Position numbers and translations under genes: made by a program. The notes under the pieces were generated by a model. It did not search any database and had not been told where the DNA came from. It saw nothing but the letters and a program-made list of their open reading frames with translations. Positions 2,350 through 35,302 of a stretch of 35,551 bases of DNA are shown in pieces (the first letter of the stretch is position 1; every line of letters starts with the position of its first letter). Origin of the DNA: Lyngbya sp. HA4199-MV5 (GTDB taxonomy: Bacteria; Cyanobacteriota; Cyanobacteriia; Leptolyngbyales; Leptolyngbyaceae); the NCBI GenBank assembly GCA_019359375.1, contig JAHHHL010000058.1, positions 1 through 35,551 on the forward strand, given 5' to 3'.

Positions 2350-4206
2350 TTACGCACTTAACAGAAGAAGCCGTAGCGGATTGAAATGAACGAACCAGGG
2401 CAGTGGTTTCTGCTTCAGCGTCTCCCACGTTTCCTTAAAGACTTCTACCTGCACATGATAGTCCTGGGGATGATCGGGTTGGGTCTTGAATTTGAGAAAT
2501 ACCGTCATGCGATGCGGCGTTTCGCTGGTGGAAACGAGCCAGCATGGAAAGGTGTTGGTCTGATTGAGAGTGTCAACAAACCGGATGTGATGAGCACGAA
2601 TTCCCACATAGGTGAGACGATCGGGCAGAGGCTCCACTATCTGCACGGACAAACCCCAATCGGCTGCAAGAATGGTTTGCGCTGCGATCGGTGCTGCCGT
2701 AGAGAAGTTCTTACATCCAGTAAGCTGAGCTACACCCAATCGTTCCGGTCGTTCAAAAATAGTGTCCTTAGAACCATACGCCAGCACATGCCCCTGCTCT
2801 AGCACCAGCAGATCCTCACAGACCCGGTAAGCTTCTTCTAAATTGTGAGTCACCAAAAGGCTTACCCCGTTAAAACTTTGCAGGCGGGTGATCAACGCCT
2901 GTTCCATTTGACTTCGCAGGTGGGTGTCTAGCGCCGAAAAAGGTTCATCGAGCAGGAGTACCTCTGGTTCACTTGCCAGTGCGCGTGCCAAGGCAACCCG
3001 TTGTTGCTGCCCACCCGAAAGCTGGCTGGGATAGCGATCGCCATAGCCCTGTAGCTGCACCGCTGCCAGTTGAACCTCTACACGCTGTCGGGTTTCGCTG
3101 GCAGAAAGGGCGTTGGGCAACCCAAACGCAATATTTTTTGCCACGGTCATGTGGGGAAACAGGGCGTAATTTTGCACCAAAACCCCAATGCGACGATCGC
3201 GGCTGGGCACGTTAATCCCTTTTTTTGCATCAAATAGCACTCGCCCATTTAAAACAATTTGCCCGTTCGTTGGGCGTTCCATCCCTGCCAGACACCGCAG
3301 CAGCATACTTTTGCCTGCCCCTGATCCCCCCAAGATCCCCAAGGTGGATTCGGTGACGGTAAAGGTTAAATCCAGATCAAAATTGGCAAGTCGCTTCTGT
3401 AGATTAACAACTAAGCCGGAAAGCCCATTGTGTTTAGGTTTAGACGGGCTGAGGGGCGCGATCGAACTAGGCACGGCAACGAGACGAGCGATCGCTGAAA
3501 GTCCCGATGGGGCAAACGTAACCCGTCGCTTTTTTTGCTGTTCCTGCCAAAAATTGACACTAAAAAGACCTGATAGTGAAATGAGCATAATCACGATCGC
3601 CCAAAACCAGGCTTCACTCATCGCACCCGCTTCCACCGCAAAGTAGATTGCCATTGGAATAGTTTGCGTTTGACCAGGAATATTACCCGCCAGCATTAAT
3701 GTGGCACCAAATTCACCCAGGGCACGAGCAAAGGCAAGAACGGCTCCTGCAATGACTCCAGGCAGTGCCAGCGGCAGCATCACGCGACGAAAGACTGTCC
3801 ATTCTGAAGCTCCTAAGGTGCGGGCAACGGCGAGAAGATTGCCATCAATTTGCTCAAACGCTCCCAATGCCGTGCGATACATCAAGGGAAAGGACACGAC
3901 TGTTGCCGTAATCGCGGCTCCGTACCAGGTAAAAACGACGCTGAAATCGACCGACATCAGCAGTTGCCCAGCGAATCCATTTTTGCCAAACAGCAGCAGC
4001 AGCAGGAAGCCTACCACAGTGGGCGGCAGAATCAATGGCGAGACAAAAAGCCCCTCCAGCAACGATCGCCCTTTTCCCCGATAGCCCAACATCCAGTAAG
4101 CAACAGCGATACCGACAAAAAAGGTAACCACCGTTGCTAATAGCGCTACTTTGAGCGAAATCCAGAGCGGCGATAGATCGGGTGGTAGGGCGATCGCATC
4201 ATTCAT
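2350..4206 (-). CDS. modBC: Fused molybdate ABC transporter permease and ATPase (ModB-ModC)
   Basis: 618 residues joining two normally separate subunits. Residues about 15-220 are a five-to-six-helix ModB permease, with the EAA-type loop and [17 protein letters not shown] near 162-178. After a linker of about 50 residues comes ModC: Walker A GGSGAGKS at 293-300, signature LSGGQ at 396-400, Walker B EVLLLDEP at 415-422. The last ~110 residues replace a classical Mop pair with a TOBE-like tail. It imports molybdate (or tungstate) across the inner membrane using ATP, receiving substrate from ModA. The gene begins 13 bp after modA ends, with GAGG just upstream of the ATG, so the two form one operon. 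ModBC fusions are known in cyanobacteria. I see no defect. Confidence 0.95.
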
Positions 4207-4219
4207 GCCTCATCCCCCT

Positions 4220-5011
4220 CTACTTGGGCACAATAAACCCATACTGCTGCAAAATCCGTTTCGCCTCACGACTGGAGAGATATTGCACAAATGCTTTAGC
4301 CGCAGCGGTGTTTTTGCTGCTTTTGAGCGCTGCCATTGGGTAGACGATCGGCGAATGGTATGAATCAGCCGCAACCGCGACAATTTTCACCTTGTTAGAA
4401 ATCTTGGCATCCGTAAGGTAAACCAGCCCCGCATCGGCATTACCGCTTTCCACCACTGACAGTACTTGCCGCACGTTATTCGCATAAACCAGCTTGGGCT
4501 TCACGGCATCTGTCAGGTTCAGCTTTTGTAGAACCTCCGCTGCATACTGCCCTGCTGGAACGCTACGCGGTTCACCCACAGCAATTCGTTTGACCTCTGG
4601 CTGCTGCAAACTATTGAAGCTGGTTACGCCTTTAGAATTTTTAGGCACAATTAAGACCAACTTATTATTTGCCAGGTTGCTACGAGTGCCGGGTGCTAAG
4701 GCTCCCTTTTGATCCAGTGCATCCATTTGACGCTTGGCGGCAGAAATAAACACATCGGCTGGTGCGCCCTGTTCAATCTGCTGAAGCAACGCACCCGATG
4801 CCCCAAAATTAAATGTCAGGCTTACATCAGCGTGGCTCTTTTGATACAGCGGCTTTATGGTTTCCATTACGTCCTTGAGGCTGGCAGCCGCCGATACCAG
4901 TAGTTTAGTATTGGCTTGAGCTGGCTCAGGGTTAATCAGCCGTAGACCAAGCACCAGAAAAAAACTGGTTAATGTTACACCTAGAAAAAGCAAAACCTGT
5001 TTACGTCTCAT
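4220..5011 (-). CDS. modA: Periplasmic molybdate-binding protein
   Basis: 263 residues from the ATG at 5011. This start was chosen because MRRKQVLLFLGVTLTSFFLV gives a proper signal peptide; a longer frame to 5083 would add 24 residues of non-signal sequence and run into the palindromic operator region. The mature part shows the ModA hallmarks LLVSAAASLKDVM, FNFGASGALLQQIEQGAPAD and DVFISAA, which line the oxyanion-binding cleft, and ends with the FVQYLSSREAKRILQQYGF motif of the family. It captures molybdate in the periplasm and delivers it to ModBC, encoded directly downstream. Transcription probably starts in the 5012-5099 gap, facing away from the RHH-Mop gene. Confidence 0.95.
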   Translation of the reverse strand: MRRKQVLLFLGVTLTSFFLVLGLRLINPEPAQANTKLLVSAAASLKDVMETIKPLYQKSHADVSLTFNFGASGALLQQIEQGAPADVFISAAKRQMDALDQKGALAPGTRSNLANNKLVLIVPKNSKGVTSFNSLQQPEVKRIAVGEPRSVPAGQYAAEVLQKLNLTDAVKPKLVYANNVRQVLSVVESGNADAGLVYLTDAKISNKVKIVAVAADSYHSPIVYPMAALKSSKNTAAAKAFVQYLSSREAKRILQQYGFIVPK

Positions 5012-5047: not shown

Positions 5048-5092
5048 TTGGTATGATTCTACCAATTTAACGAGTTTTTCCAACTTAGTTGG
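5048..5092. promoter_or_regulatory. Candidate operator between modA and the RHH-Mop gene
   Basis: The divergent gap holds a perfect inverted repeat TTGGTA-6 bp-TACCAA (5048-5065) and, 14 bp on, CCAAC-TTA-GTTGG (5080-5092), itself followed by TAA so that TTGGTA appears a third time. The second palindrome ends 7 bp before the ATG at 5100. Repeated short half-sites spaced like this suit a ribbon-helix-helix dimer or tetramer. Binding here could repress both the molybdate transporter and the regulator itself. The repeats are seen; their role is inference. Confidence 0.5.
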
Positions 5093-5099
5093 TAATAAA

Positions 5100-5528
5100 A
5101 TGCCCAGAAAAGACCAGGGATGGATTACATTTCAGACTTCTGAAGAGGAACGCCAACTGCTGGAGGCGATTTGTCAGCAGTCTCAGCGCACGAAAACAGA
5201 AGTCCTGCGAGAGATGTTGCGAGGGTTGAAGGATGCCACCCCAGATCCAACAGAAAACCCTGCTAACGTGCCACCATCAGGCACTCGTGAGCCGCCTGGA
5301 TTTCCGCCCAAGAGACCGTTTAAAGTTAGCTCTCGCAACGTGTTAGAGGGCAGGGTTACGCACATGATCAAAGGCTCGGTCAATACAGAAGTGACGTTAG
5401 AAATTGTGCATGTAGTCGAACTCACGTCTATCATCACAACCACATCGGCTGAGACGTTGGAGTTGGCAGAAGGTAAAGTCGCTTACGCGGTCATTAAATC
5501 CAACGATGTGGTGATTGCGATCGAATAG
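5100..5528 (+). CDS. RHH-Mop (TOBE) protein, likely molybdate-responsive regulator
   Basis: 142 residues in two parts. Residues 1-45 (MPRKDQGWITFQTSEEE, then LLEAICQQSQRTKTEVLREM) have the short strand followed by two helices of a ribbon-helix-helix DNA-binding domain. After a proline-rich linker (about 48-72), residues 74-142 are a single Mop/TOBE domain: SSRNVLEGRVTHMIKGSVNTE, then VTLEI, ELTSIITTTSAETLEL and AYAVIKSNDVVIAIE, as in the molybdate-binding Mop domains of ModE and ModC. Known ModE proteins use a winged helix instead. The gene is divergent from modA and its start abuts a palindromic region, so autoregulation and control of modA-modBC by molybdate are inferred. It could instead be a molybdate store, as single Mop proteins are, but the RHH domain argues against that. 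Confidence 0.8.
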   Translation: MPRKDQGWITFQTSEEERQLLEAICQQSQRTKTEVLREMLRGLKDATPDPTENPANVPPSGTREPPGFPPKRPFKVSSRNVLEGRVTHMIKGSVNTEVTLEIVHVVELTSIITTTSAETLELAEGKVAYAVIKSNDVVIAIE

Positions 5529-24463: not shown

Positions 24464-27400
24464 ATGCCTGATATCGCTGGGAATTCACTGGGAACAGCCA
24501 CATCGCTGAGCCTTACGTCCAATGTTCAATCCCTCCCGGACATTGTGACCGCCACTGCAAACGATTACTACCGCTTTACCCTGAGTCATCGGAGCAGCTT
24601 TAACCTTTCCCTCAATAGCTTAAGTGCTGATGCAAACATTGCTCTCTTAAGCAGCACAGGCAGCGTTCTCAGTATCAATAGCGTCTTACAAGTATCCAGT
24701 AATACGGGCAATCTGGCTGAGACCATCAATACCCCTCTCGATGCAGGGACATATTACATTCGAGTGGCTCCTGCTGCCTCGGCAACCACCGCTGACTATC
24801 GTTTAAATGTCTCGGCAAAGAGCGACCTCAAAACAGATATTCTCTGGCGGAATTATGCGACTGGCGAGAATGTTACCTGGCAAATATCTGGGACATCGCT
24901 GGAAGCGTTCGCGTCGCTAGAAAAGTCTGCAGACTTGAATTGGGCGATGCAGGGGTCGGGCGACTTCAACCAGGATGGTCAGGCTGATCTTGTCTGGCGC
25001 AACTATAAAACGGGCGAAAATGGCATCTGGTTGATGAATGGCACCGTTAGAACTGGCGCAGTCTTTTTAGAGTCAGTCGGCGATCTCAATTGGCAGATTC
25101 AAGGCGTAGGTGACTTTAACCAGGATGGTCAGGCTGATCTTGTCTGGCGCAACTATAAAACAGGTGAAAATGCTGCCTGGTTGATGAATAAAACCGTCAG
25201 AACTGGCGCAGCCTCTTTCCTAACGATCGGCGACCCAAACTGGCACATTCAGGGAGTCGGAGACTTTAACGGTGATAGCAAAGCTGATCTGGTGTGGCGT
25301 AATTACAGCACGGGTCAGAATGCCATCTGGTTAATGAATGGGACGACGCTCAGCACGGGCATTTTTATCAACCCGGTGGGTGGCAATTGGATTATTTCTG
25401 GAGTCGGTGATTTTAACAATGATGGCAAGTCCGATCTGTTGTGGCGCAACTATAGCAGCGGGGAGAATGCGATTTGGCTGCTGAACGGCACGTCCGTTAG
25501 TTCTACGTTCTTCATTTATCAAGTTGGTGACTTGAACTGGCGATCGATCGCTCCGTTGATACGTGCCGTTGAACCTTCTCCCATTAGCGTGGCTGGAACT
25601 ACACTGTCGAACGCGTTCAACATCGGCAGTAATCTTACTGGCAGCGGCACGTATCGCAACTCGGTTGGCAGCCTCAATAACGACTACTATCAGTTCAATT
25701 TAGGTACACCCAGTGCGGTCAATTTAACCCTGACCAATTTAACAGCGAATTTAGACGTGCAGCTCGTGAACAGCAGCAATCAAGTTCTGCAACGTTCGAC
25801 GCTGAGCGGCACCAGTGCAGAGACAATGACGAGCACGCTAGCGGCTGGCACCTACTACGTGCGTGTGTACGCCGCCAATGGGGATACCAGTGCCTATGCG
25901 CTTAATCTGCTGATCAACAATTTGCCTGTCGTTGTGACGAATGCTGGATTGACGCTCGATGAAGGAAGCACAACCACCATCAGCAGCACGTTACTCCAGG
26001 TGACCGACAACGATCACCCCACTACGCAGCTCACCTATACGCTGGGTAGCGTGCCGGGGCAAGGAGCATTGTCGTTGAATGGAGCTGCGATCGGGGTGGG
26101 CGCAATCTTCACGCAAACCGATATTAATGCCAACAAGCTGAGCTATCACCATGACGGTAGCGAAACGCTTTCGGATAGCTTTAGCTTCACCGTGACCGAC
26201 CCGGCGGGTGGCACGACGAGTAACACCTTCAACATCATCGTGAACCCGGTAAATGATGCCCCGGTGCTGACGGTTCCCGACGGACAAATTGTTGATCAAA
26301 ATGCAAACTCGTTGATTGCAGGCGTTGTGATTGCCGATCCAGATGTGGGTGTAGGGTCTGAGACGATCACCATCTCAGCCGCCAATGGCGTTGTGTCGCT
26401 TGGTTTAACAGCAGGCTTAACCTTTGCACAGGGTAACGGTAGCCCTGCCACCTCCATCACAGTGAGCGGCACACTGAGCGCCCTTAACACCGCCCTTACC
26501 AGCCTCATTTACCGCAGCAATGCTTCTTTCCAGGGCATAGATACCATTAGCGTTTCTGTGAATGACCAGGGCAATACGGGTAAAGGGGGTGCGCTGACCG
26601 ACAGCAAGACGATCGCGGTCACAGTCAAGCCAGTGAACAAGGCACCTACAATTACTGTGCCAGCAGCCCAGACGGTCAACGAAGATACGAGCCTCTCCCT
26701 GACGGGTATCAGTATTGGAGATGTAGATGCGAATGGCGGCAACGAGACGGTGAGCCTCTCAGCCATTAATGGTGTGCTGTCTCTGAGTACCACCGCCGGA
26801 CTCACGTTTTTGACGGGCACAGGCTCCAAAGACCGCAATATCACTGTTTCGGGTACTCTGGCGTTGATCAATGCGGCGCTACAAAGCCTGACATACCAGG
26901 CTAATAAAGATTTCAACGGGTCTGATGTTATCACCGTCAACGTGAATGACAACGGCAATATAGGCAACGGCGTAGCGCTCTCTGATACAAAGAGCCTGTC
27001 GATCACCGTTACGCCCGTCAACGATGCGCCCATCTTGATGGTGCCAACCGCTCAGACCGTCAACGAGAATACAGCCCTCTATGTGACGGGCGTTAGCGTG
27101 AGTGACGTGGATGCTAGCAGCGGCGCGATCGCGGTCAGCCTCGCGGCTACGAACGGGAAGCTGTCTCTTGGCTCCACCACGGGACTGTCATTTACCAGCG
27201 GCAATGGCACCACTCCCAGCACAACCCTCATCTTTAGCGGGACGTTAGCCGCCGTCAACAGTGCCTTGAGTACGCTGATCTATCGAGGCAACGCCAACTT
27301 CAGCGGCACCGATTCCATTAGCCTGAATGTGAATGACAACGGCAATACAGGTTTTGGCATTCCGCTGAGCGATAGCAAGACGATCGCGCTGACCGTGCTG

Positions 27401-30400
27401 GGAGTCAATCAGGCTCCTGTGATTCAAGTTCCCTTAGCTCCCTCAACGACAGCTAATACCAACTTGACCATTACAGGTGTCAGCATTAGCGATCCAGATG
27501 CCGCAGGTGGTACCGAAACGGTCACGATCGCCGCTGCCAATGGGGTGCTCTCCCTACCATCTAACACTGGACTCACCTTCACTCAAGGGACAGGCAATCA
27601 AAATAATCGCGTGACGTTCCAGGGCACACTGGCAGCGATTAATACGGCGATCGGCAACCTCGTTTACCGCAGCTATCCCGGCTTTACAGGCTTTGACACC
27701 ATCAGCATCAGCGTGAACGATGGCGGCAATACAGGCATCGGCACCGCCTTGTCTGACACTAAAACGCTTTTTGTGAACGTGGGTGGAGCCGTCAATACTG
27801 CGCCAACAGCTAACCCTGACAGCTACAGCACAACTCGCAACACGGCGCTTACGATCGTTGGGCAAGGGGTTCTGGTCAACGATATCGATCCTGAAAACAA
27901 TGCCCTCACTGCCAACCTACTCACCACACCGACTCAAGGCAGTATCGTCTTCAACAGCAATGGCACCTTCACCTACACGCCAAATGCCAACTACGTCGGG
28001 AACGATAGCTTCACGTACCGGGCTAGTGACGGTATTGGTAATTCCAACTCAACAACTGTAAGTCTCAATGTGACGGCACCCGCCAACCAAGCACCCACGG
28101 CGACGGCGGATAGCTTCACCCTGAGCCAGAACAGCACCTTCACCACCGGGAACGTGTTGTCCAACGACAGCGACCCTGACAACAACGTGCCCCTCACCGC
28201 GACGCTGGTTGCCGGATCTACCCAGGGCAGCGTCAATCTCAACGCCAACGGCACGTTCACCTACATCCCCACCGCCAACTTTAGTGGCACCGACTCCTTC
28301 ACCTATGCGGCGAAAGATGCTTTGGGAGCCGCTTCGACGACGGCGACTGTGAATTTGTCAGTTACAGCCCCGACGAATCAAGCACCCACGGCGACGGCGG
28401 ATAGCTTCACCCTGAGCCAGAACAGCACCTTCACTACTGGAAACGTGCTGAGCAACGATAGCGACCCAGACAACAATGTACCGCTCACCGCTACGTTGGT
28501 TGCTGGCACCACGCAGGGTAGCGTCAACCTCAACCCCAACGGCACCTTTACCTACATCCCCACCGCCAACTTCAGCGGCACAGACTCCTTCACCTACGTC
28601 GCCAAGGATGCGCTGGGTGCGACTTCCACCACGGCTACGGTCAACTTGAGTGTAACAGCTCCCACCAACCAGGCACCAACGGCTGCTGCTGATAGCTTCA
28701 CCCTGAGCCAGAACAGCACCTTCACCATCGGGAACGTGTTGAGCAACGACAGCGACCCCGATAATAACGTGCCCCTCACTGCCACGTTAATCGCTGGTAC
28801 CACGCAGGGCACCCTCAACCTCAACACCAATGGTACGTTCACCTACATCCCCACCGCCAACTTCAGCGGCACCGACTACTTCACCTATGTGGCGAAAGAT
28901 GCCCTCGGTGCGACTTCCACCACGGCAACGGTCAGCCTGAGCGTCACCGCTCCCACCAACCAGGCACCCACGGCTGCTGCCGACAGCTTCACCCTGAGCC
29001 AGAACAGCACCTTCACCACCGGGAACGTGTTGTCCAACGACAGTGACCCTGACAACAACGTGCCCCTCACTGCCACGTTAATCGCTGGCACGACACAGGG
29101 TAGCGTCAACCTCAACCCCAACGGCACCTTTACCTACATCCCCACCGTCAACTTCAGTGGGACAGATAGCTTCACCTATGTCGCCAAGGATGCCCTTGGT
29201 GCGACTTCTACCACGGCTACGGTTAGTCTCTCAGTTACAGCCCCGACGAATCAAGCACCAACTGCGACGGCGGATAGCTTCACCCTGAGCCAGAACAGCA
29301 CCTTCACTACTGGAAACGTGTTGTCCAACGACAGCGACCCCGATAATAACGTGCCGCTCACTGCCACATTGGTGGCTGGCACCACACAAGGTAGCGTCAA
29401 CCTTAACACCAACGGCACGTTCACCTACATCCCCACCACCAACTTCAGTGGGACAGATAGCTTCACCTACGTCGCCAAGGATGCCCTTGGTGCGACTTCT
29501 ACCACGGCTACGGTTAGTCTCTCAGTTACAGCCCCGACGAATCAAGCACCAACTGCGACGGCTGATAGCTTCATCCTGAGCCAGAACAGTACCTTCACCA
29601 CTGGAAACGTGTTGTCCAACGACAGCGACCCCGACAACAATGTGCCGCTCACCGCTACGTTGGTGGCTGGCACCACGCAGGGTAGCGTCAACCTCAACCC
29701 GAACGGCACGTTCACCTACATCCCCACCGCCAACTTTAGTGGCACCGACTCCTTCACCTACGTCGCGAAAGATGCCCTCGGTGCGACTTCCACCACGGCT
29801 ACGGTTAGCTTGAGTGTGACGGCACCGACGAATCAAGCACCCACGGCGGCGGCTGATAGCTTCATCCTGAGTCAGAACAGCGCCTTCACCACTGGAAACG
29901 TGTTGTCCAACGACAGCGACCCCGACAATAACGTACCGCTCACCGCTACGTTGGTGGCTGGCACCACGCAGGGTAGCGTCAATCTCAACCCCAACGGCAC
30001 TTTTACCTACATCCCCACCGCTAACTTCAGCGGCACGGACAGTTTCACCTATGTCGCTCAGGATGCTTTAGGAGCCACTTCGACCAGTGCCACCGTTAGC
30101 TTGAGTGTGACAGCTCCCACCAATCAAGCCCCAACAGCGGCGGCTGATAGCTTCACCCTGAGCCAGAACAGCACCTTTACCACTGGAAACGTGCTGAGCA
30201 ACGACAGCGACCCTGACAACAACATTCCCTTGACCGCGACGCTGGTTGCCGGATCTACCCAGGGCAGCGTCAATCTCAACACCGATGGCACTTTCACCTA
30301 CATCCCCACCACTAACTTCAGCGGTACAGATAGCTTCACCTATGTCGCCAAGGATGCGCTGGGAGCGGCTTCCACTACGGCTACGGTCAACTTGAGTGTG

Positions 30401-33400
30401 ACAGCTCTCACTAATCAAGCACCCACGGCGGCGGCTGATAGCTTTACCCTCAGCCAGAACAGTACCTTCACCACTGGAAACGTGTTGTCCAACGACAGCG
30501 ACCCTGACAACAATGTGCCTTTAACGGCGACGCTCGTGACTGGCACCACGCAGGGGAGCGTCAACCTCAACACCAACGGCACCTTTACCTACATCCCCAC
30601 CGCCAACTTCAGTGGGACCGATAGCTTCACCTATGTCGCCAAGGATGCTTTAGGAGCGGCTTCCACTACGGCTACGGTTAACCTGAGCGTCACTGCTCCC
30701 ACCAACCAGTCACCCACCGCAACGGCAGATAGCTTCACCCTGAGCCAGAACAGCACCTTCACCACCGGGAACGTGTTGAGCAACGACAGCGACCCCGATA
30801 ATAACGTGCCCCTCACTGCCACATTGGTGGCTGGCACCACACAAGGTAGCGTCAACCTTAACACCAACGGCACCTTTACCTACATCCCCACCGCCAACTT
30901 CAGTGGGACAGATAGTTTCACCTATGTCGCCAAGGATGCGCTGGGTGCTGCTTCAACAACAGCAACTGTGAATTTGTCGGTTACAGCGCCGACCAATCAA
31001 GCACCCACGGTGGCGGCTGATAGCTTCACCCTGAGCCAGAACAGCACCTTTACCACTGGAAACGTGCTGTCCAATGACAGTGACCCCGACAACAATGTGC
31101 CTTTAACGGCGACGCTCGTGACTGGCACCACGCAGGGGAGCGTCAACCTCAACACCAACGGCACCTTTACCTACATCCCCACCGCCAACTTCAGTGGGAC
31201 AGATAGTTTCACCTATGTCGCCAAGGATGCGCTGGGTGCTGCTTCAACAACAGCAACTGTGAATTTGTCGGTTACAGCGCCGACCAATCAAGCACCCACG
31301 GTGGCGGCTGATAGCTTCACCCTGAGCCAGAACAGCACCTTTACCACTGGAAACGTGCTGTCCAATGACAGCGACCCCGATAATAACGTGCCGCTCACTG
31401 CCACATTGGTTGCTGGCACCACGCAGGGCAGCGTCAATCTCAACACTAACGGCACCTTTACCTACATCCCCACCGCCAACTTCAGCGGCACGGACTCCTT
31501 CACCTATGTGGCGAAGGATGCGCTGGGAGCGACTTCTGCTACGGCTACGGTTAATCTGAGCGTCACAGCCCCCACAAACCAGGCACCCACAGCGACAGCC
31601 GATCGCTTCAGGGCTGTTACGGATACACCGTTGACGGTTTCTGCTGCCACTGGAGTGTTGAAAAACGATACCGATGCCGAAAGCTCGACGCTAACGGCTC
31701 TTTTGGTAAGCAATTCTAGTAACGGTAGTGTCGCCCTCAATGCGGATGGATCGTTTGTTTACACACCAACAACAGGCTTTACTGGCAGTGACACGTTTGT
31801 CTACAAGGCAAATGATGGAGCCTTAGATTCCAGCCCTGCGACTGTAACGCTGACCGTCTTTGGTAATACGGCACCAACTGCCAACACCGATACCTATGTT
31901 GTGTCGGCTGGAGTGCCACTGACCGTTGTTCCGTTCTCTGGCGTGCTTCAAAATGATAGTGACACCGAAGGAGACCCATTAACAGCTAGCCTAGTTACCC
32001 CAAGCAGTGGTAGCCTCACGTTCAATGGCGACGGATCTTTTGTCTACACACCGAACGCTGGGGTGACAAATGGGACGGACACGTTTGTCTATCGGGTGAG
32101 CGACGGTTTCTCGACTTCTTCTTCAACAACTGTCACGTTGAACATTGGTACCAATGCAGCGCCGATCGCCCAGGATGATACTTACAGCGCGTTTGCTGGT
32201 GGCACGTTAACCGTCAGTCAGTTTTCTGGCGTACTCAGCAACGACACCGATGCCCAGCCACTAATAGCAAGCGTGGTCAGCAATGCGGGTCAGGGAACGG
32301 TTTCTTTGAACAGCGACGGCTCGTTTACCTATGTTCCCAACGCCTCGTTTACGGGTGGCACTGATACTTTCGTTTACCAGGCAAGTGATGGTACTCTAGC
32401 GACCTCTGCCACCGTGACGCTAAATGTGTCCGCTGCCACTGCCCCGACGGCTCAAGATGACGTTTATCAAGTCGTGGCAGGCACAACGCTTAGCGTGGGT
32501 CAAACATCGAGCCTTCTCAGCAACGATAGTGACACCAATGGCGCGACGTTAACCGCTCAACTCGTGAGCAATCCCAGCCAGGGCACCCTTCTCCTGAATA
32601 CAGATGGCACCTTTGCGTATACGCCTAATGCCAGCGTGACCACTGCAACCGACACGTTCGTCTATCGAGCAAACAATGGCGCGGTCAACTCAAATCCTGC
32701 CACCGTTACCCTCAGTATCGTCAGCAACGCGCTTCCTGTTGTGGCGAACGATAGCTATTCAGTCACTGCTAACAACGCGCTAACCATCAACACGCCAGGA
32801 GTGCTCGCAAACGACACGGACAGTGATGCGGGTCAAACGGTAAGAGCCTTGTTGGCAAACCAGCCGACGCATGGCAGCCTGCTCTTGCGTGCGAATGGCT
32901 CCTTTGTCTATACGCCTGATGCAGGGTATATCGGTGCCGATTCTTTCACCTACCGAGCCAACGACGGGCTACAGGATTCGGCTAACGTGGGCACCGTCTC
33001 GCTCTCGATCGTGTCCAACGCAGCTCCCGTCACCAACACCGATACCTACAGCGTCAACAAAAATAATGTGCTGGTTAAAAACGCGGCTAGCGGGGTGTTG
33101 CAAAACGACACGGATAGCACGCCCCTTACCGCCAGCCTCGTCAATGCCCCGACCAAAGGTACTCTTGCTCTCAATAGCGACGGTTCGTTCACCTACACAC
33201 CCAATGCAGGGGTCACGAACACGACTGATACGTTTGTCTATGCAGCCAGCGATGGCACCCTCAGCACAAACGCAACGGTGACCGTGACCATCAAAGACAC
33301 GAGTTCCCCTCCCACGGCGGTCAATGACACAGGCTATACCGTGAATGCCAATGGTACGTTGACGATCGCAGCGGGGTCTGGCGTACTCACCAACGACACC

Positions 33401-35302
33401 GATCCAGAAGGTGATTTCCTTAAAGCGATCGGCGGCACCGCTCCCACCCACGGTACGGTGAGCCTCGGTAGCGATGGTTCCTTCGTTTACACGCCAACGG
33501 CAGGCTATTTAGGCACAGACAGCTTCACCTACTTTGCCAACGATGGCATTGTCAACTCGCTCAATCCAGCCACGGTGTCGATCGTCGTCGGTGGAGCGAA
33601 CAATGCCCCCACGATTACGGTGCCAGCGAGCCAGGTCGTGTTCCGTAACTCCGATTTGGTCATTCAATCTGGTCTCAGCGTGAGTGACCCGGATGCGGGC
33701 AGCAATCCCGTTGCCGTAACGCTCACATCAGCCAGTGGCAACTTAACCTTGAGCACGACGACCAACCTGACCGTTACGGGTGATGGTAGCAAAACCGTGA
33801 CCCTCAGCGGCAGTCTTAGTGCGATTAATGCCGCATTGACCAATCTCGTCTATCGCCCGGTGAATAGTGGGTTTACGGGCACAGATCAGATTACGATCGC
33901 CGTCAACGATAACGGCAACACAGGCAGCGGCGGCGCACAAACAGCCAATGCAGCCATCAATGTTAACGTCACGGATGGTCCCACGCTGGTTAGAGATCTG
34001 AACCCGACCCAAAATGCAACTGCGACAGGCACCAACAGTTCCACGCCCAACAACCTCACAAACGCAGACGGTGGTACCTTGTACTTCTCCGCCAATGATG
34101 GTGGGAGTGGGGTTGAACTATGGCGCAGCAACGGCACCAGTGCAGGCACCAGTCTGGTTGCTGACCTCAACACCGTTCCTGATGCCAGTGGTTCCTCAAA
34201 CCCCAGTAACCTGACGGTCATTGGCAACACGTTGTACTTTACCGCCAACAACAGCGTGCGGGGCACAGAACTCTGGAAAGTCGATTTGACCAGTGCAACC
34301 AATCCGACGATCGTCAGAGATATTCGATCGGGCTCCAGCAGTTCCAACCCTCGTAACCTGGTCAACTTTAACGGCACGCTCTATTTTGAGGCGGATGATG
34401 GAGGTGGTCTGGTGTTGTGGAAGACCGATGGCACGACGGCGAACACCGTTAAAGTGGAGACCTCAGCGAGCTACAGCCAGCCGGGTTTAATCGTGGCAGC
34501 AGGCACCACGCTCTTCTTCACCGCAGGCAACGGCAATCAATTGTGGCGACTGGGTGCCTCAGGTACGCAAACCACCTTGTTGCAAGATATTGGAGCGGGT
34601 GCTGGCATAACAAATCTGGTGGTGATCGGCAATACGCTCTTCTTCACCGCCACGAATAGCAGCAACGGCTTAGAACTCTGGCGCAGCGATGGGACAACGG
34701 CTGGCACCACCCGCATTTCTGATATCAACCCAGGCACGGGTGACTCAAGCCCCAGCAGCCTGGTGAACGTGAACGGCACGCTGTACTTCATCGCCAAGAA
34801 CGGTGCCAATGTCTACGGTCTTTGGCAGAGTACAGCGGCTGGGGTCGTGTCCCTGGTCAGCGCCCTTCCTTCTGCGGGGCAAGTGCCGACAAACCTCACG
34901 GCTGTCGGCTCTAAGGTGTTCTTGATCGTAGATGCTGGCACCAGCAGCGCTCCCGATCTTCAGCTATGGCAGAGTAATGGCACCACCACCAGTCGGGTGA
35001 AGGACATTAATACCGGAGGGAATGATGCGGTTGCCTCGCTCACCAACGTGAATGGCAGCTTGTTCTTTACGGCAAATGATGGCAGCACCCGCATCTGGAA
35101 GAGTGACGGCACGGATGCGGGCACAGTAGCGGTCAGCGCAAGTTACACAGGCATTACGCCCCATAACTTCACAGCCGTTGGCAATCGCCTCTTCTTCACC
35201 GCCGAAACTACCATAACGGTACTGCTGAACACCAATCCCGATGACCCTACCGTCTTTACGCCAGTTACAGGGACAACGGGTGAAGAATTGTTTGTGCTCT
35301 AA
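24464..35302 (+). CDS. Giant repeat-containing surface or secreted protein (3,612 residues)
   Basis: One uninterrupted frame. Residues 1-120: a PPC-like beta domain (PDIAGNSLGTATSLSLTSN, DNYYRF-type motif, AGTYYIRVAP). 124-365: five FG-GAP/VCBS-like repeats with D(L/I)xWRNYxTGxN…WLMNGT. 370-487: a second PPC-like domain. 490-600: a cadherin-like unit; 600-1105: four units of about 125 residues starting NxAPxxxVP and ending NDxGNTG. 1113-3046: twenty Ig-like (Big_9/VCBS type) units, of which 12 at 1208-2371 are near-identical at 97 residues each. 3046-3175: a fifth APTITVP unit. 3176-3612: ELWRSDGT-type repeats ending GEELFVL. No classical signal peptide or RTX nonapeptides are seen, so a type I secretion route with an unrecognised C-terminal signal is inferred. 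Likely role: adhesion or matrix. Size, composition and repeats argue against an enzyme. Confidence 0.9.
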   Translation: MPDIAGNSLGTATSLSLTSNVQSLPDIVTATANDYYRFTLSHRSSFNLSLNSLSADANIALLSSTGSVLSINSVLQVSSNTGNLAETINTPLDAGTYYIRVAPAASATTADYRLNVSAKSDLKTDILWRNYATGENVTWQISGTSLEAFASLEKSADLNWAMQGSGDFNQDGQADLVWRNYKTGENGIWLMNGTVRTGAVFLESVGDLNWQIQGVGDFNQDGQADLVWRNYKTGENAAWLMNKTVRTGAASFLTIGDPNWHIQGVGDFNGDSKADLVWRNYSTGQNAIWLMNGTTLSTGIFINPVGGNWIISGVGDFNNDGKSDLLWRNYSSGENAIWLLNGTSVSSTFFIYQVGDLNWRSIAPLIRAVEPSPISVAGTTLSNAFNIGSNLTGSGTYRNSVGSLNNDYYQFNLGTPSAVNLTLTNLTANLDVQLVNSSNQVLQRSTLSGTSAETMTSTLAAGTYYVRVYAANGDTSAYALNLLINNLPVVVTNAGLTLDEGSTTTISSTLLQVTDNDHPTTQLTYTLGSVPGQGALSLNGAAIGVGAIFTQTDINANKLSYHHDGSETLSDSFSFTVTDPAGGTTSNTFNIIVNPVNDAPVLTVPDGQIVDQNANSLIAGVVIADPDVGVGSETITISAANGVVSLGLTAGLTFAQGNGSPATSITVSGTLSALNTALTSLIYRSNASFQGIDTISVSVNDQGNTGKGGALTDSKTIAVTVKPVNKAPTITVPAAQTVNEDTSLSLTGISIGDVDANGGNETVSLSAINGVLSLSTTAGLTFLTGTGSKDRNITVSGTLALINAALQSLTYQANKDFNGSDVITVNVNDNGNIGNGVALSDTKSLSITVTPVNDAPILMVPTAQTVNENTALYVTGVSVSDVDASSGAIAVSLAATNGKLSLGSTTGLSFTSGNGTTPSTTLIFSGTLAAVNSALSTLIYRGNANFSGTDSISLNVNDNGNTGFGIPLSDSKTIALTVLGVNQAPVIQVPLAPSTTANTNLTITGVSISDPDAAGGTETVTIAAANGVLSLPSNTGLTFTQGTGNQNNRVTFQGTLAAINTAIGNLVYRSYPGFTGFDTISISVNDGGNTGIGTALSDTKTLFVNVGGAVNTAPTANPDSYSTTRNTALTIVGQGVLVNDIDPENNALTANLLTTPTQGSIVFNSNGTFTYTPNANYVGNDSFTYRASDGIGNSNSTTVSLNVTAPANQAPTATADSFTLSQNSTFTTGNVLSNDSDPDNNVPLTATLVAGSTQGSVNLNANGTFTYIPTANFSGTDSFTYAAKDALGAASTTATVNLSVTAPTNQAPTATADSFTLSQNSTFTTGNVLSNDSDPDNNVPLTATLVAGTTQGSVNLNPNGTFTYIPTANFSGTDSFTYVAKDALGATSTTATVNLSVTAPTNQAPTAAADSFTLSQNSTFTIGNVLSNDSDPDNNVPLTATLIAGTTQGTLNLNTNGTFTYIPTANFSGTDYFTYVAKDALGATSTTATVSLSVTAPTNQAPTAAADSFTLSQNSTFTTGNVLSNDSDPDNNVPLTATLIAGTTQGSVNLNPNGTFTYIPTVNFSGTDSFTYVAKDALGATSTTATVSLSVTAPTNQAPTATADSFTLSQNSTFTTGNVLSNDSDPDNNVPLTATLVAGTTQGSVNLNTNGTFTYIPTTNFSGTDSFTYVAKDALGATSTTATVSLSVTAPTNQAPTATADSFILSQNSTFTTGNVLSNDSDPDNNVPLTATLVAGTTQGSVNLNPNGTFTYIPTANFSGTDSFTYVAKDALGATSTTATVSLSVTAPTNQAPTAAADSFILSQNSAFTTGNVLSNDSDPDNNVPLTATLVAGTTQGSVNLNPNGTFTYIPTANFSGTDSFTYVAQDALGATSTSATVSLSVTAPTNQAPTAAADSFTLSQNSTFTTGNVLSNDSDPDNNIPLTATLVAGSTQGSVNLNTDGTFTYIPTTNFSGTDSFTYVAKDALGAASTTATVNLSVTALTNQAPTAAADSFTLSQNSTFTTGNVLSNDSDPDNNVPLTATLVTGTTQGSVNLNTNGTFTYIPTANFSGTDSFTYVAKDALGAASTTATVNLSVTAPTNQSPTATADSFTLSQNSTFTTGNVLSNDSDPDNNVPLTATLVAGTTQGSVNLNTNGTFTYIPTANFSGTDSFTYVAKDALGAASTTATVNLSVTAPTNQAPTVAADSFTLSQNSTFTTGNVLSNDSDPDNNVPLTATLVTGTTQGSVNLNTNGTFTYIPTANFSGTDSFTYVAKDALGAASTTATVNLSVTAPTNQAPTVAADSFTLSQNSTFTTGNVLSNDSDPDNNVPLTATLVAGTTQGSVNLNTNGTFTYIPTANFSGTDSFTYVAKDALGATSATATVNLSVTAPTNQAPTATADRFRAVTDTPLTVSAATGVLKNDTDAESSTLTALLVSNSSNGSVALNADGSFVYTPTTGFTGSDTFVYKANDGALDSSPATVTLTVFGNTAPTANTDTYVVSAGVPLTVVPFSGVLQNDSDTEGDPLTASLVTPSSGSLTFNGDGSFVYTPNAGVTNGTDTFVYRVSDGFSTSSSTTVTLNIGTNAAPIAQDDTYSAFAGGTLTVSQFSGVLSNDTDAQPLIASVVSNAGQGTVSLNSDGSFTYVPNASFTGGTDTFVYQASDGTLATSATVTLNVSAATAPTAQDDVYQVVAGTTLSVGQTSSLLSNDSDTNGATLTAQLVSNPSQGTLLLNTDGTFAYTPNASVTTATDTFVYRANNGAVNSNPATVTLSIVSNALPVVANDSYSVTANNALTINTPGVLANDTDSDAGQTVRALLANQPTHGSLLLRANGSFVYTPDAGYIGADSFTYRANDGLQDSANVGTVSLSIVSNAAPVTNTDTYSVNKNNVLVKNAASGVLQNDTDSTPLTASLVNAPTKGTLALNSDGSFTYTPNAGVTNTTDTFVYAASDGTLSTNATVTVTIKDTSSPPTAVNDTGYTVNANGTLTIAAGSGVLTNDTDPEGDFLKAIGGTAPTHGTVSLGSDGSFVYTPTAGYLGTDSFTYFANDGIVNSLNPATVSIVVGGANNAPTITVPASQVVFRNSDLVIQSGLSVSDPDAGSNPVAVTLTSASGNLTLSTTTNLTVTGDGSKTVTLSGSLSAINAALTNLVYRPVNSGFTGTDQITIAVNDNGNTGSGGAQTANAAINVNVTDGPTLVRDLNPTQNATATGTNSSTPNNLTNADGGTLYFSANDGGSGVELWRSNGTSAGTSLVADLNTVPDASGSSNPSNLTVIGNTLYFTANNSVRGTELWKVDLTSATNPTIVRDIRSGSSSSNPRNLVNFNGTLYFEADDGGGLVLWKTDGTTANTVKVETSASYSQPGLIVAAGTTLFFTAGNGNQLWRLGASGTQTTLLQDIGAGAGITNLVVIGNTLFFTATNSSNGLELWRSDGTTAGTTRISDINPGTGDSSPSSLVNVNGTLYFIAKNGANVYGLWQSTAAGVVSLVSALPSAGQVPTNLTAVGSKVFLIVDAGTSSAPDLQLWQSNGTTTSRVKDINTGGNDAVASLTNVNGSLFFTANDGSTRIWKSDGTDAGTVAVSASYTGITPHNFTAVGNRLFFTAETTITVLLNTNPDDPTVFTPVTGTTGEELFVL
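28085..31576 (+). repeat. Twelve tandem 291-bp units inside the giant gene
   Basis: Twelve units of exactly 291 bp (97 codons) in frame, each starting at NQAPTA/NQSPTA and containing SQNSTFTTGNVLSNDSDPDN, GTFTYIPTANFSGTDSFTY and KDALGA. They differ by few residues, mostly at fixed positions (LVAG/LVTG/LIAG, NPNG/NTNG/NANG). Units 10-12 share a stretch of 221 identical bases one unit apart, and unit 9 shares long blocks with unit 11 two units apart, which shows recent duplication or gene conversion. The units on either side of the array are the same fold but strongly diverged. Confidence 0.95.

Follow-up and report, generated by a model that had tools for sequence, protein, structure and literature searches.

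A probable molybdate-responsive repressor of cyanobacteria that joins a ribbon-helix-helix-like domain to a Mop domain, and its conserved palindromic operator

The 35,551-nucleotide stretch of Lyngbya sp. HA4199-MV5 DNA analysed here (the window) encodes a 142-residue protein (5100–5528, + strand, ATG start), called from its open reading frame, domain profiles, alignments and a structure model, that carries a ribbon-helix-helix (RHH)-like domain and one Mop domain and is divergent from modA. From the sequence data we propose, with a probability of about 0.78, that this RHH-Mop protein is a molybdate-responsive, autoregulated repressor, whose RHH dimer would read TACCAA/TTGGTA half-sites and whose Mop domain would bind molybdate or tungstate. 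The proposal draws on computed results: the domain make-up, the conservation of the ligand positions, the gene order, the conservation of the operator, and the occurrence of this operator before other molybdenum genes in some relatives.

Results

The regulator gene and modA, which encodes the molybdate-binding protein (4220–5011, – strand; TIGR01256, 5.1e-69), lie on opposite strands with 88 bp between them, which bears out the divergent arrangement described in an earlier sequence-only reading of this DNA. A modBC fusion encoding permease and ATPase (2350–4206, – strand), with matches to TIGR02141 and ABC_tran, is also present, and an acetate kinase gene is the next after the regulator gene. 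By its relatives the window is cyanobacterial, and the closest named one for the regulator, among the 80 best of 231 relatives, comes from Stenomitos rutilans, at 84% along the full length of the protein. Elsewhere in the window, positions 24464–35302 encode a 3612-aa repeat protein with numerous near-identical repeats.

Residues 74–142 of the regulator (5319–5525, + strand) form a Mop/TOBE domain, supported by profiles and alignments. Both Pfam TOBE (2.6e-12, residues 77–137, 47.2 bits against a cut-off of 22.3) and TIGR00638 Mop (68 bits against a cut-off of 55) are exceeded, the Pfam and TIGR profiles placing a single TOBE/Mop stretch in the protein, and the structurally closest proteins are MopII, ModG, Tub and ModE. 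In the available part of a study of Tub, its buried oxyanion sites are described as composed of Ser4, Arg6, Lys60 and Ala61 together with Ser40 from a neighbour, partly via the backbone, and as very similar to the site of Mop and ModE (PMC11980592). A gap-free alignment to Tub places S77, R79, T113, K133 and S134 of the regulator at Ser4, Arg6, Ser40, Lys60 and Ala61, respectively. These five positions are invariant in 16-row and 44-row alignments of relatives, so the molybdate sensor half is very likely intact. The suggestion that this protein represents an independent solution to molybdate sensing therefore does not stand, since only the DNA-binding half differs from ModE, and for sensing the protein uses a Mop domain whose ligand positions are those of other Mop proteins.

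Residues 1–45 (5100–5234, + strand) look like an RHH domain, the match being weak by sequence and middling by structure. In Pfam they reach no cut-off, the only match being TraY at E 0.1, below its cut-off. Among 44 relatives the weak N-terminal Pfam matches were to RHH_1 (15), TraY (14), RHH_9 (3) and NikA-like (2), with best E-values of 0.0086–0.27, alongside unrelated weak matches such as zf-CRD (27). A sequence profile of this half gave mostly chance matches against PDB sequences, with one ParD at E 1.1. In a structure prediction of the kind proposed in the sequence-only reading, an AlphaFold2 model of residues 1–55 (pLDDT 76.5) contains helices at 15–28 and 32–44, a pair arranged as in an RHH core. 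The best Foldseek and VIA rows for this model are mostly PutA, CopASO, NikR, TacA, CopG, Arc, ParD and AmrZ, which we take, in part from their titles, to be RHH proteins; Foldseek E is 0.3 or worse, and VIA Z is ≤6.6, a middling level that, by the tool's own warning, may mean just a common arrangement. The N-terminal strand, which we would place at about residues 8–12, is assigned in neither of the monomer models, full-length or residues 1–55. A variable linker of residues 46–73 (5235–5318, + strand) connects the two halves, with pLDDT below 50 over residues 47–77 in the full-length model, which is only moderate (pLDDT 69, pTM 0.39). The RHH-plus-Mop architecture read from the sequence is thus recovered, as a modelled RHH-like helix pair followed by a TOBE/Mop domain over its cut-offs.

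The gap between the two genes holds two palindromes, as had been noticed from the sequence. P1, TTGGTA-N6-TACCAA (TTGGTATGATTCTACCAA; 5048–5065), lies over -10-like hexamers. P2 (TTCCAACTTAGTTGGTA; 5078–5094), of the TACCAA-N5-TTGGTA type with one mismatch, contains CCAAC-TTA-GTTGG and ends 5 nt before the regulator ATG. They had been described as nested, but the arrangement is tandem, with centres 29.5 bp apart.

Conservation of the palindromes was assessed in 90 distinct 110-bp upstream regions, the window included and identical regions collapsed. These came from 80 loci of a genome collection (the best 80 of 231 relatives), 10 of 16 near-relative loci and the window; of the six near-relative loci set aside, one was the window itself and five were judged to duplicate genomes already represented in the 80. 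At ≤1 mismatch, P1 is present in 53/90 regions, P2 in 48/90 and either in 74/90, and both are found at two mismatches in 44/90. Dinucleotide shuffles of the same regions gave means of 0.045 (P1) and 0.075 (P2), with a maximum of 1; the regions come from related genomes and are not independent, so that the shuffle figures overstate significance and relatedness inflates all operator counts. P1 and P2 exceed chance and recur among the relatives, as the sequence-only reading would predict. Their placement is also regular: P2 ends 5 nt ahead of the ATG in 38 of 48 regions, and the P1–P2 centre distance is 29.5–33.5 bp in 32 of 33, which is close to three turns of the helix.

Positions 3–4 of the P1 core are AT in 51/53 regions, and P1 thus contains a -10-like hexamer both forward (TAGAAT, TAGGAT or TAAAAT in 48/53) and backward (most commonly TATGAT and TACGAT). 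The usual spacing between -35 and -10 elements is 16–18 bp, and in the modA direction the first half of P2 lies 16–18 bp from the backward P1 hexamer in 35/44 regions. In the window, a promoter-like match for modA, TTGGAA (5083–5078) and TAGAAT (5061–5056) separated by 16 bp (5056–5083, – strand), is the one match of a promoter scan that covered 801 bp and in which chance alone would give 1.3. A modA promoter as the sole cause of the P1–P2 spacing was rejected, because 17 loci that are not beside modA show equally tight spacing. The possibility of a riboswitch was also rejected for this gap, as no Rfam family reached its gathering score within the window.

Among near relatives, 35 of 58 genomes (the window's own included) have some match to the regulator; the 16 full-length genes taken from these 58, the window's included, have a divergent modA within about 530 bp in 13 cases. 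A profile search of 388 cyanobacterial genomes gave a match in 187. Full-length RHH-Mop genes without stops are present in at least 63 of the 388, with one more genome (G365) matching over positions 1–131, and most of the remaining listed matches are either Mop domains standing alone or fragments of the RHH half. A second RHH-Mop copy (G016:C7:3506-3991) is interrupted by a stop codon, and a plasmid search returned three Nostoc records with partial matches. The genome collection scan kept 231 relatives, the best 80 of which are cyanobacterial by their titles. Looking for RHH-plus-TOBE architectures next to modA across cyanobacteria had been put forward in the sequence-only reading, and the pairing recurs: 29 of these 80 loci have a divergent modA within 500 bp, with a gap of 83–100 bp. 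The other 51 are not beside modA, and 38 of them keep P1 or P2 at ≤1 mismatch; neither palindrome was found at one mismatch in 13 of the 51, or in 2 of the 29 modA-linked loci. The ModE DNA-binding domain (TIGR00637) exceeds its curated cut-off in 0/388 cyanobacterial genomes, with weak sub-cut-off matches in 265; as a control, the same profile matched 7 of 14 control genomes, 2 of them over the cut-off.

To look for the operator at other molybdenum genes, modBC was searched in 20 genomes of one family (f32), 19 of which yielded it (G540 gave none). It lies within about 2.5 kb of the regulator in two of the 19 (G115 and G153) and elsewhere in the others; a second, weak match in G153 (L314) was excluded from the upstream counts. 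The half-site TACCAAC/GTTGGTA occurs in 12/19 modBC upstream regions, twice or more in 8/19 (shuffle means of 0.46 for any and 0.002 for two or more), and is absent from 7/19; a whole site at ≤1 mismatch is present in 5/19.

The exact pattern TACCAAN5TTGGTA was then counted genome-wide in 16 RHH-Mop genomes; it occurs 59 times, and the reversed pattern 10 times. Six V-nitrogenase genomes hold 45 of these sites against 2 reversed, and the other ten, with no recorded V-nitrogenase match, hold 14 against 8, little excess. Sixteen genomes with no match to the protein profile gave 6 against 7, in a confounded comparison, as 12 of the sixteen belong to the same family as the window and f32 is not represented. 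In our own tally, 24 of the 45 sites in the V-nitrogenase genomes are at the regulator, at genes for RHH-only proteins or before molybdenum-related genes. The molybdenum-related genes encode ModA-type proteins (over cut-offs), Mop, ModD, a PaoA-like molybdoenzyme (below its cut-off), VnfR-like regulators and, where they stand back to back with a ModA-type gene, OprB-type porins. Some of these sites are distant, at 472 bp from one Mop gene, 193 bp from the PaoA-like gene and 271–279 bp from VnfR-like genes. The other 21 comprise 12 within ORFs of ≥229 aa and 9 with no evident tie to molybdenum (3 before HSDR_N genes, 1 before a DUF7219 gene and 5 unassigned). Neighbouring genes were read from mechanically called ORFs and considered up to a distance of 500 bp, and some labels (VnfR-like in G551 and G374, porin in G529) are by resemblance to scanned proteins. 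Of the HSDR_N-domain proteins, two (L276 and L270) were scanned and one (L281) is assigned by resemblance; they lie 88–144 bp behind operator sites in three of the V-nitrogenase genomes. At two loci (L239, 5731–8735; L277, 2578–5752), operator sites separate a ModA-type gene from an OprB/SLH-type porin gene in a back-to-back arrangement, and such pairs might provide molybdate with a way through the outer membrane.

For the genome of the window itself, the operator seems to be confined to the modA gap. At ≤3 mismatches there were 25 matches against 56 for the reversed control, with no second good site; the two sites with 2 mismatches adjoin no molybdenum gene by eye, and the sole exact TACCAAN5TTGGTA falls inside an ORF. 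Counts for this genome in loose-pattern whole-genome scans were near or below control. In genome G534, no whole site at ≤1 mismatch was found before vnfDG, vnfH or a vupA-like gene, which has one half-site upstream, and direct control of vnfDG, vnfH or vup there was rejected on this ground.

Discussion

In the mechanism that we infer, the protein binds DNA, and molybdate serves as its ligand and corepressor. With ample oxyanion, the loaded form would sit on both palindromes, covering the -10-like promoter elements at P1 and, at P2, the ribosome-binding region of the regulator's own gene, so that modA, modBC behind it and the regulator would all be off. When molybdate is scarce, the protein would leave the DNA and the uptake genes would be expressed. 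The direction of this response is consistent with the reported repression of a molybdenum-transport gene by molybdate, or by tungstate in its place, in Anabaena variabilis (PMC4284476, available text). As for the oligomeric state, each dimer of an RHH protein usually occupies a single half-site, and with four half-sites in the gap, four dimers would suit. The single-Mop protein Tub is described as a hexamer (PMC11980592, available text), and set against four half-sites this means that the oligomer of RHH-Mop could differ from four dimers.

The same palindromes could instead be activator sites, with the molybdate-free form activating modA, or with mainly molybdenum-using genes being activated (an activator or dual regulator). 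The far-upstream sites, such as those at the PaoA-like and VnfR-like genes, are less obvious for simple occlusion and fit such a role. Yet P1 overlaps -10-like hexamers and P2 in most cases stops 5 nt short of the ATG, a classical place for a repressor, and the A. variabilis transport gene is reported to be repressed by molybdate (PMC4284476, available text), so that we consider activation unlikely. It is also quite unlikely that the protein controls its own gene only, as a molybdate buffer limiting its own amount, and leaves modA to another factor, for example a VnfR-kind HTH_3 plus PBP_like protein. Such an arrangement would account for the 38 of 51 loci away from modA (among the best 80 of 231 relatives) that keep P1 or P2, and for the lack of a second site in the window's genome, and VnfR1 and VnfR2 are reported as molybdenum-dependent repressors of vnfDG (PMC4284476, available text). 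It does not account for the half-sites before modBC and the sites before ModA-type, ModD and Mop genes, or for the tight 83–100 bp modA gap with both palindromes placed within it.

Antitoxins (TacA, ParD, CopASO) are among the top structural neighbours of the RHH half, and this half could in principle be an antitoxin-like or plasmid-type autoregulator fused by chance to a Mop domain and with no link to molybdate. We regard this as very improbable, given that the neighbours in the window are modA and acetate kinase, that all five compared ligand positions are invariant and that the modA link recurs (29/80 loci, best 80 of 231). A molybdate-responsive repressor remains the preferred reading.

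Compared with ModE of the E. coli type (TIGR00637 plus di-Mop), which itself has a palindromic operator beside modA, the RHH-Mop protein shares the Mop sensing domain, the palindrome by modA and, as proposed here, control of modABC. Unlike ModE, with its winged helix and two Mop domains, it has an RHH-like domain and one Mop domain within 142 aa; it carries the molybdate ligand positions of Mop and lacks the di-Mop, and TIGR00637 gave no match to it up to E 1. NikR, one of the neighbours of residues 1–55, likewise combines an RHH DNA-binding domain with a C-terminal ligand domain, but this is a nickel-binding metal-ligand domain where RHH-Mop has Mop, and the regulator is not a NikR. The Mop, Tub, MopII and ModG storage proteins have the same Mop fold and oxyanion ligand positions, and no DNA-binding domain. 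In the available text of PMC11980592, single-TOBE forms are named ModE-like, and the three major regulatory TOBE architectures of gut microbes are all helix-turn-helix.

VnfR1 and VnfR2 of A. variabilis, as molybdenum-dependent repressors (PMC4284476, available text), would resemble RHH-Mop in function. They differ in fold, in that the likely VnfR1 of G534 (by position) and the relative in G291 are helix-turn-helix proteins, the latter being HTH_3 plus PBP_like in Pfam, an architecture absent from the regulator. That VnfR1 and VnfR2 are themselves RHH-Mop proteins was rejected, as the proteins encoded where they would be expected in the vnf region of G534 are of helix-turn-helix type, and the one scanned with Pfam, from G291, is HTH_3 plus PBP_like.

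The gene itself has very probably been seen before. A 'modE homolog' upstream of modA in A. variabilis, attributed to Zahalak et al. 2004, is cited in a review that places modA and modBC 2.7 Mb apart on a 6.36-Mb chromosome (PMC4284476, available text). In G534 an RHH-Mop gene (L157) and modA form a divergent pair near 4.289 Mb, and modBC is at 1.607 Mb, about 2.68 Mb away on a 6.378-Mb contig; the same gene was thus very probably noted in 2004 as modE. The available text on the 'modE homolog' describes no RHH domain or operator (PMC4284476), and no description of an RHH-Mop protein, its RHH domain or its operator was found in a search of open-licence literature.

The domain make-up, together with palindromes conserved beside the gene and, in some relatives, beside other molybdenum genes, suggests that RHH-Mop is the molybdenum switch of many cyanobacteria. 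It would explain the control of molybdate uptake in cyanobacteria, a group of important nitrogen fixers in which ModE over its cut-off is found in 0/388 genomes. Its Mop sensor is joined to a DNA-binding fold that is not ModE's winged helix, and P1 and P2 provide a precise DNA signal open to testing. The protein may also connect molybdate sensing with the change to V-nitrogenase.

Four V-nitrogenase genomes encode an RHH half with no Mop domain, of 65–92 aa as called (L173, L179, L182 and L183, in G534, G291, G551 and G374). These RHH-only genes share a contig with a V-nitrogenase gene, at a distance of about 8 kb (G291), 22 kb (G534), 49 kb (G551) and 115 kb (G374), and those of G291, G551 and G374 carry this operator only a few nt ahead of an MPRK start, whereas the G534 copy has none. 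The RHH-only proteins may compete with RHH-Mop for the operator. A broader reading, which we hold only tentatively and consider rather doubtful as a whole, is that RHH-Mop replaces ModE as the master switch of a Mo/W/V regulon built on the half-site TACCAA, expanded in V-nitrogenase strains to substrate-binding proteins, porins, Mop, ModD, a molybdoenzyme and VnfR-type regulators, with the sensor-less RHH-only paralogues competing as a molybdate-blind counterpart.

Two V-nitrogenase genomes also carry divergent full-length RHH-Mop copies (L162 and L163) with no operator in the 200 bp before the start; in G482, L163 is on the contig with vnf and is flanked by ORFs resembling nitrogenase genes. 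In Nostoc sp. UHCC 0926 (L316), a V-nitrogenase gene and operator sites seem to be on a 1.04-Mb plasmid (NZ_CP117772.1), whose RHH-only gene is at the same place as in contig C7 of G374.
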